Source: Sphaerosporella brunnea
Lineage: Eukaryota; Ascomycota; Pezizomycetes; Pezizales; Pyronemataceae
Direction of reading: 5' to 3'
NCBI GenBank assembly: GCA_008704415.1
Contig: VXIS01000396.1
Span: 1-39,316 of the forward strand
DNA: 39,316 nt
Below are positions 334 through 30,188 of this stretch, piece after piece. The translations under genes were made by a program, and so were the position numbers. The notes under the pieces were generated by a model. It was given only the letters and a program-made list of their open reading frames with translations, had not been told where the DNA came from and did no database searches. Position 1 is the first letter of the stretch; each line of letters begins with the position of its first letter.

Positions 334-3149
334 ATGGGCTCGCACGTCAGCAAGCCCTCCGCGCCAGAGCGGAGAAAGCAAAGCCTGCCGAAAAGGCGGA
401 GGACGACGACGACGGGCGCGAAGGTTCAGGAAGTAGTGGAGATTTCGGCAAGTCCGAGGGTCAGAGAGTTGATGTCGAAATTGACGCTGGAACAGAAGGT
501 TCGTCTTCCCTCCCTCCCCTCTTCTCGCCGGACTGATCACCCGCCAGATATCGCTGCTGGCTGGCCAGGACTTTTGGCGCACGCAGGAGATCAAAGAGCT
601 GGGAATCCCCGCATTGAAGGTCACCGACGGCCCGAATGGGGCTCGTGGCCAATACTTCACTGATGGCACACCGGTTTGTTTTCTGATGGAATGGCCGCTT
701 TCTCGCGCTGACGGTAAAAAGGCTGCGCTGTTCCCCTGTGGCGTCTCGCTGGCCGCGACCTGGAATACCGAGATATTGCATGCCGTCGGCGGAGCCCTGG
801 CGGAGGAAACGAAAGCACGCCAGGCACAGGTGCTCCTCGCCCCCACGGTCTGTATCCATCGATCCCCCCTTGGAGGCCGCAACTTCGAGTCCTTCTCGGA
901 AGACCCCTTGATTATTGGAAAGCTCGCGTCAGCCTACATCACCGGACTGCAAGAACGGGGGGTCGGCGCCACGATCAAGCATTTCGTCGGGAACGAGCAG
1001 GAGACGTGGAGGATGACGGTGAACTCGGTGGTCGAAGAAAGGCCGCTGAGGGAGCTGTACCTCAAACCGTTTGAGATTGCGATCCGCGAAGCGAAACCCT
1101 GGGCCGTCATGTCCTCGTATAACATGGTCAACGGTACGCATGCCGATATGAACGAGTTTACGCTGAAAAAGGTCCTGCGGGGTGAATGGAGATATGAGGG
1201 GTATTTCTTCGCCCGCCTGGGAGATGCACCTCGAGGCTGATGAGGTTTTGTAGGATCGTCATGTCCGATTGGGGCGGAACGAACTCCACGGGGCCATCCA
1301 TCAAGAGCGGTTGCGACCTTGAGATGCCGGGTCCAACCAAGCTGCGCGGGAAGAATGTCATGGAGGCCATCGAGAAAGGGGAAATCACAGTGAGGGATGT
1401 GGAGGAGTGCGCAGCGCGTGTTCTGACCTGGATCGAGAAGTGTGGAAGATTCGATCTGCCGTGGGAGGAGCCGGAGGAGAAGTCGATTGATACCGCCGAA
1501 ACACGAGCGTTGATACGGCAGGCTGCGACCGAGGGGCTGACATTGCTGAAAAACGAGAACAATGCTTTGCCCATCGGCCCGGATGTGCGAAGGATTGCTA
1601 TTATCGGTCCGAATGCGAAACAGCCGATTGCTGGCGGCGGCGGCAGCGCCAGCTTGAAGCCGTATTATCTCACCACTCCGTACGATTCGATCACAGCGAT
1701 AGCCGGCGACCGCACAATCCTATATGCCCCAGGAGCGCAAACCGAAAAATGGCTCCCATTGGCGTCCAACAACTGCACAACACCCTCTGGAAAGCCTGGT
1801 GTAGTCCTCGAGTTTTACAAGGGCGACAAGTTCGAAGGCACGCCCATGTTCATCCAGAACCGGCCAAAAACAGATCTCTTCCTCTGGGACAACGCGCCAA
1901 AGGAAGTCCTGCCCAAATACTCCTTCCGGGTGAAAACTCAAATCGTCCCGGAGACGACCGGGAATCACACCTTTGGCCTCTCCAGCGTTGGCCCGGCAAA
2001 GATGTACATCGATGGCGAGCTGCTCATCGACAACTGGGATTGGACGGAAGCGGGCGAGGCCATGTTTGACGGCTCAATAGAGGAGCTCGCTTACTGGCCA
2101 ATGGTGGCTGGACAAACGTACGCCATTCTTGTCGAGAGCACCAATGAAGTTCGCCCTGCCGCGAAGACAGGTCCCACCTATGGATACGGAGGCTGCAGGA
2201 TCGGCTTCGCCGAGCGACCAAACACAGATTTTGTGGCCGAGGCCGCAAGGATCGCAGCCAGCGCGGATGTGGCGATCGTTGTGGTCGGATTGGATGCGGA
2301 GTGGGAGTCAGAAGGCTATGACCGGCAGAGCATGAATCTCCCGAAGGATGGAAACCAGGATCGCCTGGTCGCTGCCGTGGCGGAGGCCAATCCGCGCACC
2401 ATCGTCGTCAACCAGTCCGGCACTCCCGTCACAATGCCTTGGGCGGACGATGTCCCTGCGATCCTGCAGGCCTGGTACCAAGGACAAGAGGCTGGAAACG
2501 CCCTTGCAGATGTCCTGCTGGGCCAAGCAAGCCCGAGTGGAAAACTCCCGGTTACTTTCCCCAAGAGGCTGGAAGATAACCCCACGTACCACAATTGGCC
2601 GGGAGAAGACCGCCGAGTGATTTACGGTGAGGGTCTTTTCGTCGGTTACCGCCACTACGACCGCGTGAAAGTGGAACCGCTCTTCCCCTTCGGCCATGGG
2701 ATCACCTACACCACTTTCGAGTACGGGACCCCCACAATCAGTGCAACCGTGCTTCCCGAGTCTGGAAATATCACCATCTCCGTACCAATAACGAACACCG
2801 GCAAGGTCAGCGGCAAGGAGACCGTGCAGCTGTATATCCGCGACGTGAAATCCCGATTACTGCGGCCAGAGAAAGAGCTGGCCGCGTTCGGGAAAGTGTC
2901 GCTGGAGCCAGGGGAAACCAAAACGGTAGACCTGTCGATCGACAAACATGCTGTCGGGTATTACGACCCGAGCTTGTCGAGCTGGATCGCAGAAGAGGGC
3001 GTGTTCGAAGCGTTGGTGGCGGCATCGTCGGTAGATATCAAGTAAGCTTCTAGGATGCCCTCCTCTCGACCGAAGCCGTCAATCCGCTGACATGTTCCAG
3101 GGGAACCGTGGAGTTCAAAGTCGCGCAGTCGTTTACTTGGCTCTTCTGA
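334..3149 (+). CDS. Beta-glucosidase, glycoside hydrolase family 3 with PA14 domain
   Basis: Predicted exons are 334-498, 548-673, 722-1200, 1254-3041 and 3101-3149, giving 868 aa. Introns are 49, 48, 53 and 59 nt; the second is in frame and ends in AAG after a good GCTGAC branch site. The last intron is supported because it restores the usual GH3 end, SFTWLF. The family hydrolyses terminal beta-D-glucosyl residues of oligosaccharides. Visible motifs are KHFVGNEQE, the nucleophile Asp262 in MSDWGG, LLKNENNALP, a PA14 insertion at roughly 400-575, WESEG near 607-611 with the likely acid/base Glu, FPFGHG, and a C-terminal fibronectin-III-like domain. No signal peptide is visible, so an intracellular enzyme of the bglH/I/J kind is likely. 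The basic N-terminus before MSKLTLEQK is unusual; a start at that inner Met is possible. Confidence 0.93.
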
Positions 3150-16075: not shown

Positions 16076-19000
16076 TCAATTAGTAGTACCACTGGACAAA
16101 CCCTCATCCAGCGTCCGTTCCAACGCCTTAAAACTCACCGGCTTGACCATAAACGAGTCCACACCGGCCTCAAACGCTTCCCTCTGAACGCTTGTCGCGG
16201 CAAGGCCGGTGAGCGCCACGATCAAGCTCTTTTTTTGTCCGGCTTCCGCTTCGAACTGTCGGATCTCTCGTGTGGACTCGATACCGCCCATCACGGGCAT
16301 TTCTGTTGTAAGTTAGCTTGCGTTATCTTCTGTTGCGGGGGGAGGGGGGGCGTACGCAGATCCATCAAGATAACATCATACCCGCCCTTCTTCTCCGTCG
16401 CCTTGACCTTCTGCAAAGCCTCCAATCCATCCGCCGCAACCTCAAACGGATACCCCTTTCTCTTCAGAAACGTCGTGAGCAGCATGAGATTGATCTTGTT
16501 ATCCTCGACCGCCAGAATCCTGGGAAGCTGCTTCTCCTCCTTCGGCAGCCACGAGTCGGGGCCCGGAATCGGAGGCGTAGAAGGCGTGGTAAGCGTAGAA
16601 CTGGTAGAGCGTGTCAACCGCTGCTCGTCATCGTCATCGTCGTCGCTATCGGTGCTGCACGATTCCTGTGCGGTTTCATAGTCGGTGTCGGTGCACAGTT
16701 GCTGTTGCTGCCCGCGCAGTATCTCCTCCAAGCAAAACGCCATAGCCTTCTCCAGCTTCTTCGGGCCGCAGGGCTTGCGGACAAATGTTGCGGCGCGGCC
16801 GTAGAAGCGCGATGCTCCGCCGTCCATGGGTGGGTGGCCGCAAAGCACTATTACCGGCGCCGTTCCGCCCGCAAGAGACTCAAGAACTGCTGCCTGCCCC
16901 TCCTCATCGGGCGTTTCATTGACGATGACGATATCCGCCTGATCCGCCGCATCGTCATCGCGGAGCACCCGCATCCCGAAGTAATCCCTCGCATACCTCT
17001 CGATGCTCGCCCTCAAAAAGTTCGCCGCCTCGCCGGTGGGACAAAGCCGTTTCGTCTTGACGAATCTCTTGAACCCTTTCACCCCGAGCTTCAGTCCGGC
17101 AGTATTGCTTCCACGCTTGAGCTGAGCGTTGAGATTCAACGCCGCCGGCACACCGGGCACCCGGTGGAGCAGCGGCACCGACACGGTGACCTTGGTGCCC
17201 TTACCGACCTGCGACTTAACGTCGATCTTCCCCCGCAAGACCTCGACGATCTGCCGCACGATCGACATGCCGAGCCCCGCACCAGCAGCCAGCGGGTTCT
17301 CCTGCGAAAACGGCGTGAACAGCTTCGTTTTCAAAAACTCCCTGCTGATCCCCTTGCCGGAATCGGAGACCGAGATGCGCACCATCGCCCGCGGGTTCCC
17401 GTGCGCATCGGCCTCCATCTCATCGGCGCGCAGCCGCACCCGCACCCACCCGGCGTCGGTGTACTTCATCGCGTTGCCGGCGATGTTGTTGATTACCCTC
17501 TTCAGCGCGGCCGGGTGCGTGAGGAATACCCACCCGTCGCGGCGGTGGTCGATATCCAGGATCACGGTGATTTGGCTGCCGTCCTCGCGCTGCAGCAGCT
17601 GCTGCTGCGTGACGGGTGTTTCTGGCATTCCCACCACGGGCGCAGCAGAGGACTGGAACTCGGACCCGAGACAGACGCCCTCGATGATATCCTGCACCAA
17701 CGCCCCGAGATCCGTGTCCACCATCTGTGTGTACTTTGCCCCGGCCCCTGGCTTACCGATTGCGGCGGGATCCGCGACTGCTTTTGCCGCTGCCGCTGCG
17801 TCCCCGCCGGCGCTCGGCCGCCGCTCCGTGTTGGAGAGGCTGTTGAGCTTTTGGAAGTCGAGAACGTGGTTGATAGTATCGAGGAGTGTGCGGCCGCAGC
17901 TGACGACTGTGTCCACGAAGCTCCGTTGGTAGGCGTCGAGGGAGCTTTCGGCGAGAAATTCGGCGGAAGCGAGGATACCGTGGATAGGGGTGCGGAGCTC
18001 GTGGGAGATGCTGGATATAAACTCGCCTTTTGCCTTATCCGCTGCAAAAAACCATCAGCTCCACATGCCCCCAGAGAGGAGGAGAGGACGGGGCGGGGTA
18101 ACCATGGAGGATATTCAACCTCGTTGTCTCTGCCAGGATGCAGTTCGCAACGGCAGTGACAAAGCTGCCCTCGACGTCGCCGGTGAATGTCCTGGTCGCA
18201 CTGGTCCACGCGAAACACACCGCAAACAGCTTTCTGTTGTGATCCCACAGCGGAACGAGGATGACGGATTTTGCGCCGGGGAGGAACCGCCGGAGGATTT
18301 CGTCGGTGCGCGATAACGCCTGGGGTGGCGCATCGCTATCGTCTACGTGGGCCACAATCCTGCCATACTCGTTGTCCTCCACCAACTCATTCAGCGCCTC
18401 CTCGCTGAGCTCTCCCACGTCGAAGCCCAGCTGCTCGAATGAGTCGTGGCGGGAACTACAGCCACCGGCCGTTGCGGGCCCCCAACTATTCGAGCTCCCG
18501 CCGGCAGTGGCATAACCCAGGATCCCGCTGCGGCGCCGGCAGGCCTTGGGGCGTTCAGCGCGCGTGGCCTGCTCCGCCTCTTTATCGGTGGAGATGTGCG
18601 AGAACCCGCAGTTGTGGGGCCGATCGCACTCCGCTTCGGAGCCAAAAAACCCTTCGAGGTCGCCGTCGAGGAATACGACGTCTGCGTCGATGCCGTTGCG
18701 GATCAGGCTTGCGGCGCGGAAAAACATGGCGCGGAACTGCGGCTCGAAGGAGGACGTCTTTTCGTATGCCGATTTCCGACGAGGGGCGCTTTGGTCCGAG
18801 GACGAGGAGGAGGTGCCTGAGGTCGAGGCGCTCGAGTCGAAGTAGGTGCTCGTTGTGCAACTGTCATCGCGGGCACTGCTGGCTGGTGGGGTTAGCTGGG
18901 CGCCGGAGTAGAGGCAGATCGGCGGTGAGGGTGTCGGGAGCGGATGGTCGGTGGAGAGGATAACAGTTTCCATCAACGACAGCTCGGTCGGATCCTCCTC

Positions 19001-20251
19001 CTCCTCAGCTATCGGCACAACAACAACTGGGAGACTGGGTCTACGCTCTTCCGCTTTCCCTCGCTCGAGAGCAGTGGTCGGATTTTGCTTCTGGCTTTCG
19101 ATCTGTGCTTGCAGACTCTCACGTTCCTTCTGCCATTCCCTTTCCCGCTCCTTGATCATCTCGGCGAATTTCCGCTGCTGGAACATCAGCCGTTTTTCCT
19201 CCACCTTTTTTTTCCGCTCCAGCTCCTTGATCCGCCGTTGCTCCAGCATCCCCAAGTCTAACAGCCTTCCATCGCGGCGCTCCGTCATCTCCACGCCTTC
19301 CCCCGGGAGAAACCCTTCCGCGATGAACCTCGACAGACCCAGCTCCATCGCCTTGCTCTTCTTGATATCCCGCTCCCCCTGCTTAGTGACCAGATAGTTC
19401 ATGACGATGTCCCCCAGCTCACACAGCCGCATTTTCTCCTCCTCGCTCAAGCCGTCGGGCCTGGGTTCGGGATCCATCACGCACAGCGTACCGATATTAA
19501 CGCCGTTCTTGGTCCGCAGCGGCACAGCGGCATAGAACCTGTTGTGCGGCCAGCCCTTCACGAACGGCGCCACGCACAGCTGCTCGACCTTGCTCATATC
19601 CGGGATCTGGTTCAGCAGCGGCTGGTCGTCGGCCGCCTCGGGCTCCGGCGGCACCATGGAAACCGTGCTGAGGCAGAGGCTGTTGGCGGTCGGAAACGCC
19701 GTGCCGGCGCCTAGCCAGAGGTGGTCGCCGGGGTCGTGGGTGTGCGGCGCCGTGATGCTGAGGGAGCGAGTGGCCTCCGCCACCACGTAGCCCTGCGAGC
19801 CGGCGATCATGGTGACCATGGCGCGCTTCGCATTCAGCACGCGCGCGGTGTGGTTCGTGATCATGGCCAGCAGGGGGTCGTAGGAGGAGACCAGGTTCGG
19901 ATGGTATTGGTAGTCCGGGTGGCCATTAGTGGCGCAGGTGGTGTCTTTCCACGGGTCGATGCTTTGCTTGAGTTCTGCGGCTGCCGGTTGCCAGTAACTT
20001 TCGGAATTTCGTTGTGAGTTTCTGCCTGGATAAAAAAACAAAACAAAAAACAAAAAAACCCCCCCCAAAAACAAAAAAACAAAATAACTGGTAGACGGAC
20101 GGATGCTGGCTTACTTGAAGACTTCGCGGATCCGGAGCGAGCGGTGGCAGTCTCCTTGATACCCGTCGTTGTTGTTGTTGTTGTCGTTGTCGTTGGGCTC
20201 TAGCTCCTTGCTGCCACTACTCCCCGTGCCCGCGCCCGAGGCGACGACCAT
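16076..20251 (-). CDS. Hybrid histidine kinase with GAF domain and C-terminal receiver
   Basis: Predicted exons are 20251-20115, 20021-18103, 18041-16356 and 16302-16076, giving 1322 aa. The last intron (53 nt, GCTAAC branch) restores the phosphoacceptor motif MDLQMPVMGG. Domain order is a disordered Asn-rich N-terminus, a GAF domain (about 85-290; FYAAVPLRTKNGVNIGTLCV), a charged coiled coil (about 330-400), a low-complexity Ser/acidic segment, and a second GAF-like region before the kinase. Next are the H-box ISHELRTP with His699, the HATPase (NNIAGNAMKYT, DSGKGIS, GAGLGMS), and a receiver at about 1190-1316 with Asp1199, Asp1246, Thr1279 and Lys1301. It should autophosphorylate and relay phosphate to a separate HPt protein of the Ypd1 type. 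No membrane segment is seen, so it is probably cytosolic. All key residues are present. The ligand of the GAF domain is unknown. Confidence 0.94.
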
Positions 20252-24935: not shown

Positions 24936-26390
24936 CTATTCCCAGTACATCCCATTTGGCGGCATCAGCACACCAGTCTCAGGATCCAAGTGCCCCCCGG
25001 CAAACAAACCACTCGACATCAGTGCATCATACGTCTCATCCTCTGGATCCGAGTATTCCTCCTCTTCCCAATCGCTCTCACCATCCTCCCCCTCCTCCTC
25101 CTCCGCGATGCCGCTCTCGCCGGGTCCACCCATGTATCCTCCCCCAAGCACCGGGTTACGCTCAACCTTCACGATAGCCCCCTTCCAATAGGTATAAGCC
25201 GCGGTGGAACCTACCACGACCTCCAACCCTTCCCGCTCACCGGACAGCCTCATGCAGGCGGCAAAGCTGAGGCCGTCTTGGCCTGTGAGATCTAGCTTCT
25301 TGAGACCCCTGGCAACACCGTTCGAACCGCCAGACTCGCCGCTCCCGCGCAGGAGGAGGGTGATGGAGCCTTTGGTCTTCAGTTTCCCTGAGCGCGACGC
25401 TGCGGAGCAGCCCGCGATGCGCAGCAGCTCGAGCTTCGAGAGCTTGGTCAGCGCGACGTGGAGGCTGGCGTTGGTGAGCTTGCTGGCGCCGCGGAGCGAC
25501 AGCACCTTTAGTTCCGGGCAACAGGTGACGAGGTCGCTGATGCCGGCGTCGGTGAGGCGGGAGCTGTCCAAGACCGCCACCGCTGTGAGGGCGTTGCAAA
25601 GGGCCGGAAGGGTGGTGATGGTTTGGAGGTGCGCGCTGCAACGAAAGCGAGTGTCAACGCGGTTAGCTGACGAGCAGACAAAGGATGTGTTTATTATTCA
25701 CACATACTCTCGGGCTTCGAAAGCGAGCTGGAAGCAAACTCCCCGCAAACCAGGGCGCGTGAGACCGGCCGGGTTCCAGTCCTCCGTGTGGGCCCAGGTG
25801 CACATTTGAGGAACTGCGGGCGTGTCTTCGTGGTAGGGGGTGTAGCTAGCCATTGCGAGTGTATCGGGAGATGTCTTGGTGGTTTCCCGACTGGATGAAG
25901 CGCGCCCGGCCCCGCCACCACGGGGAGGGCCGCTGTATCGGGCTGTCTGCTTTGTTCTTGGGCCGGTCGGAGCTGGAGTATTCGATATTTCTTGCTGCGG
26001 TTGCATCTGGCTGCTGGAACCTCGATTGGAAGCGGGTACCGATGCATACGCAGCACGGCCGGCTCCGCCGCCACGGGGAGGGCCGCTGTATCGGGCTGTC
26101 TGTTTTGTCCTCGGGCCGGTAGAAGCCGAAGTATTCGAAACCTCAGGCCGCCGCTGTTGCACTTGGCTGCTGGGAGCCTCATTCAATGTAGGTCTTCCCG
26201 TGAATGCTCCACCCTTTCCGCGGCCGCGGCGAGCGGTTCGTCCCCGACGTGAAGCATTCGATTGTTTCGGGGACTGATGTGACGTTCCGGCTGCATGTAC
26301 AACGAGTCCTCCCATCACACGGCGTTCCGTACTCTTGCTATCGTCGCTGCATTCGCCGTAAGGCATCTTGCGGTCAGTGGTTGATACCAT
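24936..26390 (-). CDS. Leucine-rich-repeat protein with two histone H3-tail-like peptides and an acidic C-terminus
   Basis: Exons are 26390-25708 and 25635-24936, with a 72-nt intron (GTATGT...GCAG), encoding 460 aa. The basic N-terminal part (about 45-165) contains GRGKGGA (56-62) and two copies of PRTKQTARYSGPPRGGG (93-109 and 144-160), a near match to the histone H3 N-terminus with Lys4 kept and Lys9 replaced by Tyr. Then comes a segment with MCTWAHTEDWNPAGL, and AMN1/F-box-type leucine-rich repeats (LTDAGISDLVTCCPELKVLS, LRGASKLTNASL, LELLRIAGC). The end is acidic (EEEEGEDGESDWEEEE) and closes with HLDPETGVLMPPNGMYWE. The LRR part likely binds a protein partner. Basic histone-like and acidic segments together suggest a nuclear role; that is inference. 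No F-box is visible. An inner start at Met9 is possible. Confidence 0.82.
25899..26171 (-). repeat. Tandem duplication encoding two H3-tail-like units
   Basis: Two coding units, 26171-26052 and 26018-25899, each about 40 codons, are offset by 153 bp (51 codons). The 23-codon cores (26120-26052 and 25967-25899) encode identical peptides and differ at seven third positions only. The first half of each unit has several amino acid differences, such as Ser for Pro and Arg for Gln. Confidence 0.9.
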
Positions 26391-29315: not shown

Positions 29316-30188
29316 CTAATCGTCTTGCTCCTCCGGCTGCCGGTCGCATATTTTTTTCACTAATTCCCTTTGCTTTTTTTCCAACATGCCAACGGAGGCG
29401 CCTCCCCTCACCAGCACCCTAACAATCTCCTGCATCACCTCAGGGTCGCCTCTGGCCCTCCCCAGCGAAATATACGGGCCAAAAACACAGCCCAGAGGCG
29501 AATGCGAATAGTATCCCACACCCACTATAGTCGAGTCCGCCCCATGCTCCATCAGCAGCGCCACAATCCTAGGATCCTGTCCATACTGCACCGCATAATG
29601 CAGCGGGGTCATGCCCTGAATCGTGCGGGCATTAACATCGGCGCCACTTTGAATCAGCAGCTTCAGGGGTTTATCGGGCCTGTCCGGCTCAATGGTATGG
29701 ACCTCTGAGGCAGCGTGTAGCGGGGTGCGGTTAGTTCCATCTCTCGCATCGACGTCTGCTCCGCGAGCCAAAAGTAGCTCCATCACTTCCACCTCCTCGG
29801 ACAGATACCACCGCGAAGCCGCCAGGTGAAGCCTAGTGATCCCGCCGAAACCAATACGCATGTTTGGGTCCATGCCCGCGGCGAGGCTGAGGGTGACTTG
29901 GCGTGCGTTGCCCATCCACGGACTATTTCGCCAATGATTGAACGGATTGTCGACGTCAATGGTTATTGGTGTCGCGATAGCGAGGGCTCGTTTGTACAGG
30001 GAACGGAGAAGTAAGCGGTACAGGGCGTGGTCGGTGCGGACGAGAGCGTGAAGATCGAGGAGAGGGAGGTGCTCGGCGATGGTGAGCATGAGCTCTGGAG
30101 GGATGGTATTCAGGGTTAGACACATGTTGAGGTGGCGTGTGGGATGATCACGAACATCAGAGGGGGGAAGCAGAATATCTATGGGCAT
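29316..30188 (-). CDS. F-box-like protein with ankyrin repeats
   Basis: A single exon of 290 aa. Residues 25-60 (LNTIPPELMLTIAEHLPLLD, then LHALVRTDHALYRLL) look like an F-box, the segment that binds Skp1 in SCF ubiquitin ligases. Four or five ankyrin units follow: GGITRLHLAASRWYLSEEVE, VMELLLARGADVDARDG, NRTPLHAASEV, LLIQSGADVNARTIQG, MTPLHYAVQYGQDPRI and VALLMEHGAD. The C-terminus is basic then acidic. F-box plus ankyrin is a very common fungal combination, taken to select substrates for ubiquitination; the substrate is unknown. A second possible start is the Met in NMCLTLNTIPPELM. The neighbouring NLR pseudogene is divergent. Confidence 0.85.
   Translation of the reverse strand: MPIDILLPPSDVRDHPTRHLNMCLTLNTIPPELMLTIAEHLPLLDLHALVRTDHALYRLLLRSLYKRALAIATPITIDVDNPFNHWRNSPWMGNARQVTLSLAAGMDPNMRIGFGGITRLHLAASRWYLSEEVEVMELLLARGADVDARDGTNRTPLHAASEVHTIEPDRPDKPLKLLIQSGADVNARTIQGMTPLHYAVQYGQDPRIVALLMEHGADSTIVGVGYYSHSPLGCVFGPYISLGRARGDPEVMQEIVRVLVRGGASVGMLEKKQRELVKKICDRQPEEQDD

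Follow-up and report, generated by a model that had tools for sequence, protein, structure and literature searches.

The window analysed here, contig C330 of the soil fungus Sphaerosporella brunnea (Pezizales, Pyronemataceae), is a stretch of 39,316 nucleotides, and its minus strand carries a gene of two exons that, once the intron is spliced out, encodes a protein of 460 amino acids. This protein combines an N-terminal tail containing a repeated motif with a leucine-rich-repeat (LRR) domain, an acidic stretch, and a conserved C-terminal peptide. The features of the gene are listed in Table 1, together with three neighbouring regions to which Pfam domains were assigned.

Table 1. Features of the motif gene and of neighbouring regions, in window coordinates.
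Feature	Position	Strand	Remarks
Glycoside hydrolase 3 C-terminal domain with PA14	1240-3042		neighbour (Pfam)
GAF and histidine kinase/response regulator frames	16294-20074		neighbour (Pfam)
Ankyrin-repeat frame	29319-30188		neighbour (Pfam)
Exon 1	26390-25708	-	open frame from ATG 26390; arginine-rich, predicted-disordered N-terminal tail with motif repeats, and start of LRR domain
Intron	25707-25636	-	72 bases, GTATGT...TTGCAG (GT...AG); splice agrees with P0001
Exon 2	25635-24936	-	remaining LRR domain, acidic stretch, conserved C-terminal peptide
Earlier unit, likely degenerate	26196-26249	-	RRGRTARRGRGKGGAFTG, residues 48-65; placed by eye
Core copy 1	26052-26120	-	TGPRTKQTARYSGPPRGGGAGRA, residues T91-A113
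PRTKQTARYS, first	26085-26114	-	residues 93-102
Core copy 2	25899-25967	-	residues T142-A164; same 23 amino acids as copy 1
PRTKQTARYS, second	25932-25961	-	residues 144-153
LRR domain, FBXL type	25134-25808	-	spans intron; boundaries approximate, carried over from P0003 model
Acidic stretch	25035-25109	-	residues 404-428

The splice junction, across FEARDAHLQT, is supported by the public S. brunnea protein model (P0001, 263 residues), which is 100% identical to the gene product over 250 residues. P0001 starts at Met180 of the 460-residue frame, so the tail is absent from it, and its last 13 residues disagree with the frame (24936-25060, minus strand), probably through an alternative splice. 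Judging from the sequences of its relatives, P0001 seems to be incorrect at either terminus. The longer frame is probably right because the C-terminus of the S. brunnea read-through frame, LDPxTGxLMPPNGxYWE, is common to the relatives P0003 (Wilcoxina mikolae) and P0006 (a metagenomic protein), and because P0003 and P0007 (Tirmania nivea, Pezizaceae) are in frame upstream of the Met180 position. The position of the intron seems to be conserved as well, since P0006 has a 22-residue insertion (residues about 75-97) where the S. brunnea intron sits, and this insertion resembles an unspliced intron in frame. RNA-Seq has been produced for a published S. brunnea genome, which is not necessarily this assembly (PMC6908789). 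If translation instead began at Met180, the repeats would form a 5' leader and the tail would not exist as protein, as could be read from the models of P0001 and of P0002 (Pyronema domesticum), both of which begin at that position. This is highly improbable, given that the differences between the motif cores, read in the 460-residue frame, are all silent and that six relatives (P0003, P0005, and P0007 to P0010) are in frame through the Met180 position, with Met found there in 0 of the 6.

The LRR domain was assigned to the FBXL type on a sequence profile for FBXL2 and FBXL17, although the list of similar folds comprises FBXL proteins along with many other LRR chains and, with FBXL17 and FBXL2 tied, does not separate the subfamilies. 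The LRR fold is shared with FBXL17, FBXL2, and KDM2B, from which the S. brunnea protein differs in that no F-box was detected and that it has, in addition, an acidic tail and an N-terminal tail with repeats. A Pfam search at E values up to 1 gave no F-box match in S. brunnea, P0003, P0006, or P0007. In the structural model of P0003, residues 1-70 form a block with pLDDT of 28-34, only one short helix (77-86) precedes the LRR domain, and the LRR blocks reach pLDDT of 68-94; the tail is predicted to be disordered and the LRR domain to be FBXL-like.

The initial annotation had reported that PRTKQTARYS occurs twice in the tail, with only silent differences between the two 23-codon cores, and both observations were confirmed: the cores differ at 7 nucleotides, 7/7 of them silent (dN 0, dS 0.43; Fisher P = 1.1e-4). 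The figure of about a quarter that it gave for the share of silent changes is slightly low, as single changes in the S. brunnea core are silent in 30-33% of cases; the probability of 7/7 silent changes in the core is 2-4e-4. As also reported, the flanks diverge: of 19 aligned flanking codons, 9 keep their amino acid, and 63% of the nucleotides are the same. When a neutral simulation allowed the run to be placed anywhere in the 42 aligned codons, an equally long silent-only run arose with P = 3.5e-4. This simulation, along with conservation across relatives, supports the proposal that the peptide is under selection. The earlier, likely degenerate unit was recovered as a second match, 62% over 26052-26252.

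Each S. brunnea copy matches seven consecutive residues of the histone H3 tail (RTKQTAR). Matches to H3 over 7 or more residues occurred in 25/400,000 shuffles of the core (about 6e-5) and in 19/60,000 shuffles of the 179-residue tail (3e-4), rates that precede any correction for the number of proteins and of famous peptides scanned. The match is therefore suggestive and not decisive, being rare per protein but not across many proteins and many peptides. In scans of the S. brunnea genome (50.6 Mb), RTKQTAR was found in uninterrupted DNA only at the two window copies. The true H3 gene, located on C445 (L014) and encoding the tail ARTKQTARKSTGGKAPRK, was missed by this DNA pattern because an intron between Gln5 and Thr6 separates RTKQ from TAR. 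As regards a possible origin of the motif DNA from an H3 gene, the R2 and S10 codons are AGA/AGG and AGC in the motif vs CGC and TCC in this H3 gene, and motif positions 11-17 are without a match to the H3 that it encodes. A pattern for QTARYSG gave three genomic sites, comprising the two in the window and one on C169 that lacks GPPRGG, and the reversed QTARYSG pattern, used as a control, gave one. Searches for S. brunnea paralogues with P0002, P0004, and P0011 as queries returned only the window gene, a weak match on C17 (E 0.58, containing stops), and a homologue of the C-terminal part of P0011 on C33 (L018, C33:107454-107735; E 9e-7); visual inspection of the three forward frames revealed no motif in this homologue or beside it.

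At least 11 proteins (P0001 to P0011) were collected for comparison, in searches part of which scored only those candidates, roughly 8,000, that had the most words in common with the query. P0002, P0003, P0006, and P0007 are LRR relatives; the P0002 model is without a tail and no tail is visible in P0006, whereas P0003 and P0007 retain the LRR domain with degenerate motifs only. Four metagenomic proteins (P0005, P0008, P0009, and P0010) are short frames in which a basic start is followed by the motif and the first part of the LRR domain; they contain what exon 1 contains and stop about 13 to 50 residues beyond its end. With the motif masked, and against a database limited to the sequences collected here, they match P0007 (P0010, E 3e-15; P0008, 3e-15; P0009, 2e-14; P0005, 2e-8) and, more weakly, S. 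brunnea (P0010, 7e-7; P0009, 1e-6; P0008, 7e-6; P0005, 0.014). Seven LRR-linked proteins thus have a visible tail: S. brunnea, P0003, P0005, P0007, P0008, P0009, and P0010.

Two further proteins carry the motif outside a visible LRR context. P0004, from a JGI metagenome, consists of repeats only, with six motif copies spaced 52-55 residues apart by variable spacers. It matches the S. brunnea unit and spacer at 57% over 89 residues, and at 53% over 72 residues (E 0.001) with the 12-mer QTARYSGPPRGG masked. P0011, from a metagenome-assembled genome of Pyrenula ochraceoflavens (Eurotiomycetes), carries the motif three times (KQTAKYSGPPRGGA, KQTARYSGPPRGGA, and KQYARYSGPPRGGS) along with a degenerate copy, RQTARRGGG. 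Once its residues 166-330 are masked, P0011 shows no similarity to the rest (the best E being 2.2 when the database held only the sequences collected here), and it is in this sense unrelated to the LRR family; when the 12-mer alone was masked, P0007 and P0011 matched at E 0.087, which might reflect a slightly longer shared segment. Comparison of P0011 with solved structures gave weak matches only (best E 0.13), and Pfam and NCBIfam gave nothing over the cut-off for P0011, P0007, or P0003. By eye, the P0011 N-terminus is SAP-like; the Pfam search found no SAP domain there.

Across 18 copies in 8 proteins, the motif unit is R-x-[KR]-QTARYSGPPRGG, 15 residues in length, and the exact 12-mer QTARYSGPPRGG is present in 12/18 by hand count. 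These copies are not independent, as P0004 contributes six and P0011 another four, and 6 of the 8 proteins are metagenomic or metagenome-assembled predictions, several of them partial. Copies were collected with an anchor that fixed Q5 and limited the next five positions (6-10), which thereby excluded the PRTKKAAR of Wilcoxina; because of this anchor, the count at Q5 holds by construction and those at positions 6-10 are favoured. Matches to H3 at positions 1-10 number 1, 16, 8, 12, 18, 17, 16, 17, 0, and 17 of 18, and at positions 11-17 there are 0 or 1. Positions 11-16, untouched by the anchor, are G17, P17, P16, R16, G17, and G16 of 18, so that the half of the motif unlike H3, GPPRGG, is conserved as strongly as the H3-like half. 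Position 4 is Lys in 12/18 copies and Arg in 6/18. Position 9, where the anchor permitted only Tyr or Arg, is Tyr in 16/18, Arg in 2/18, and Lys in 0/18, and no other residue was seen there by eye in the 8 motif proteins. These per-position counts indicate that RTKQTAR in S. brunnea represents a single local variant of a wider motif. No copy was found in viral or prokaryote contigs, and the motif had no match in solved structures. A literature search with motif strings (e.g., QTARYS and ARYSGPPRGG) found no motif-bearing paper, and no description of H3-like repeats in fungal LRR proteins was found among the matches listed.

The resemblance to H3 had been read as a bait or substrate for H3K4-type writers, readers, or erasers, a proposal that was to fall if relatives kept the LRR domain and lacked or scrambled RTKQTAR. 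Such relatives were found: among the seven LRR-linked proteins with a visible tail, the peptide is intact in S. brunnea only. Lys4 is lost in 4/7, being Arg in P0005, P0007, P0008, and P0010, and the peptide is scrambled in 1/7, P0003, where a Lys stands in the altered setting PRTKKAAR; P0009 retains Lys4 as RQKQTAR. What speaks for the bait is the exact RTKQTAR in S. brunnea and in 4/6 P0004 copies, and the Lys4 of two-thirds of all copies. PHD-type readers recognise a free N-terminal Ala, and its absence, recognised in the initial annotation, extends to every copy; those of S. brunnea are internal, as is the single copy with Ala at position 1. For the human enzyme MLL4, as distinct from a fungal one, the substrate motif outlined in PMC12551112 calls for Arg or Lys at +5, a position that is Tyr in S. 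brunnea, although the other positions of that motif are satisfied. The Arg4 copies, the scrambled relative, the missing free Ala1, and the +5 Tyr make it unlikely that the partner is an H3K4 writer, reader, or eraser; the H3K4 mimic was rejected on the relatives' sequences, and we give it almost no probability.

A second reading would place the mimicry at H3 residues 5-10, with QTARxS lying in an H3-tail groove (of a chromodomain-like protein, or of an H3S10-type kinase or its reader) and Tyr in place of Lys9 blocking methylation. R2, Q5, T6, A7, R8, and S10 match H3 in 16-18 of the 18 copies (a count that the anchor fixes at Q5 and favours at 6-8 and 10), the Pyrenula protein has them in 3-4 of its 4 copies, and the MPP8 chromodomain is described as contacting H3 through Q5, T6, A7, R8, and S10 around Lys9 (PMC3192050). 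However, position 9, which is read by the aromatic cage, is Tyr or Arg throughout the collected copies, GPPRGG is equally conserved, and Wilcoxina has KKAARRG. With no Lys at position 9, a methyl-lysine reader is doubtful, although the residues contacted by MPP8 are kept, and we consider this reading improbable. The R-x-S of the motif could presumably also serve as a kinase site. A search for HP1 (chromo shadow domain) gave no match in the S. brunnea genome, but as it gave none in the control genomes either, this absence carries no weight. Histone mimics of the EHMT/G9a type resemble the S. brunnea protein in having a short H3-tail-like peptide within a non-histone protein, but their defining feature is a lysine that takes the H3K9 position and can be methylated (as outlined in PMC10611923), and position 9 of the motif is never Lys. 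The interdomain linker of BAZ2B, like the predicted-disordered S. brunnea tail, is basic and disordered, and its sequence is similar to the N-terminus of H3 (PMC5663869); it is described in the same source as regulating its own PHD finger, whereas the S. brunnea segment is fixed and repeated in sequence and its protein has no PHD finger by Pfam.

The likeness to H3 could also be a coincidence of composition (R, K, T, A, and G) in RGG-like repeats that bind nucleic acids or form condensates. RGG/RG-rich tails are basic, glycine-rich, and likely disordered, as is the S. brunnea tail, which includes PPRGGG and RGRGKGG, and the first 30 residues are arginine-rich in P0003, P0005, and P0007 to P0010, although in P0007 the tail taken as a whole carries no net basic charge. 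The shuffles that reproduced a 7-residue H3 match are further consistent with coincidence. Such tails usually drift in residue order, in contrast to the motif, whose order is fixed over the 12-mer in most copies while the spacers diverge. An order fixed over a dozen positions would be easier to explain by a specific partner than by a loosely ordered RG-rich tail, and we regard the compositional reading as possible yet rather unlikely.

The preferred reading, to which we give slightly better than even chances, is that the 15-residue motif, repeated in the tail of the S. brunnea LRR protein and in the Pyrenula protein, is a docking site for a shared partner. The motif is repeated, its cores diverge only silently in S. 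brunnea, it is conserved across relatives, and it recurs in a second protein; the constant residue order, the lack of amino acid change between the cores, the multiplication, and the reappearance on another scaffold argue for a linear motif to which a folded partner would bind. Docking is likelier than a fake H3K4 tail because most of the relatives found keep a longer, largely non-histone peptide, often without Lys4. In such an arrangement, a folded partner, possibly nuclear, would bind the linear motif in the predicted-disordered tail, additional copies would add avidity, and the LRR domain would act as a separate arm holding a second ligand. The H3 likeness (R2, Q5, T6, A7, R8, and S10) may reflect a partner with an H3-tail groove, whereas it is unlikely that the peptide stands in for a methylatable H3K4 or H3K9. 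The bolder proposal, that a portable pseudo-H3 peptide which cannot be methylated (RxKQTARYS-GPPRGG, with Tyr for Lys9) serves ascomycetes, in arrays of at most six copies and on scaffolds unrelated to one another, for capturing some protein that has an H3-tail groove, appears quite unlikely.

As this case illustrates, seven residues shared with a well-known peptide can be misleading as long as relatives have not been compared. A peptide of 12-16 residues that is fixed amid diverging surroundings, multiplied, and recurrent in another fungal class is a strong sign of a binding motif. If the partner does read H3 tails, the repeats would constitute a natural array of unmethylatable H3 decoys; if it is no H3 reader, they would still represent an unnamed fungal docking motif.
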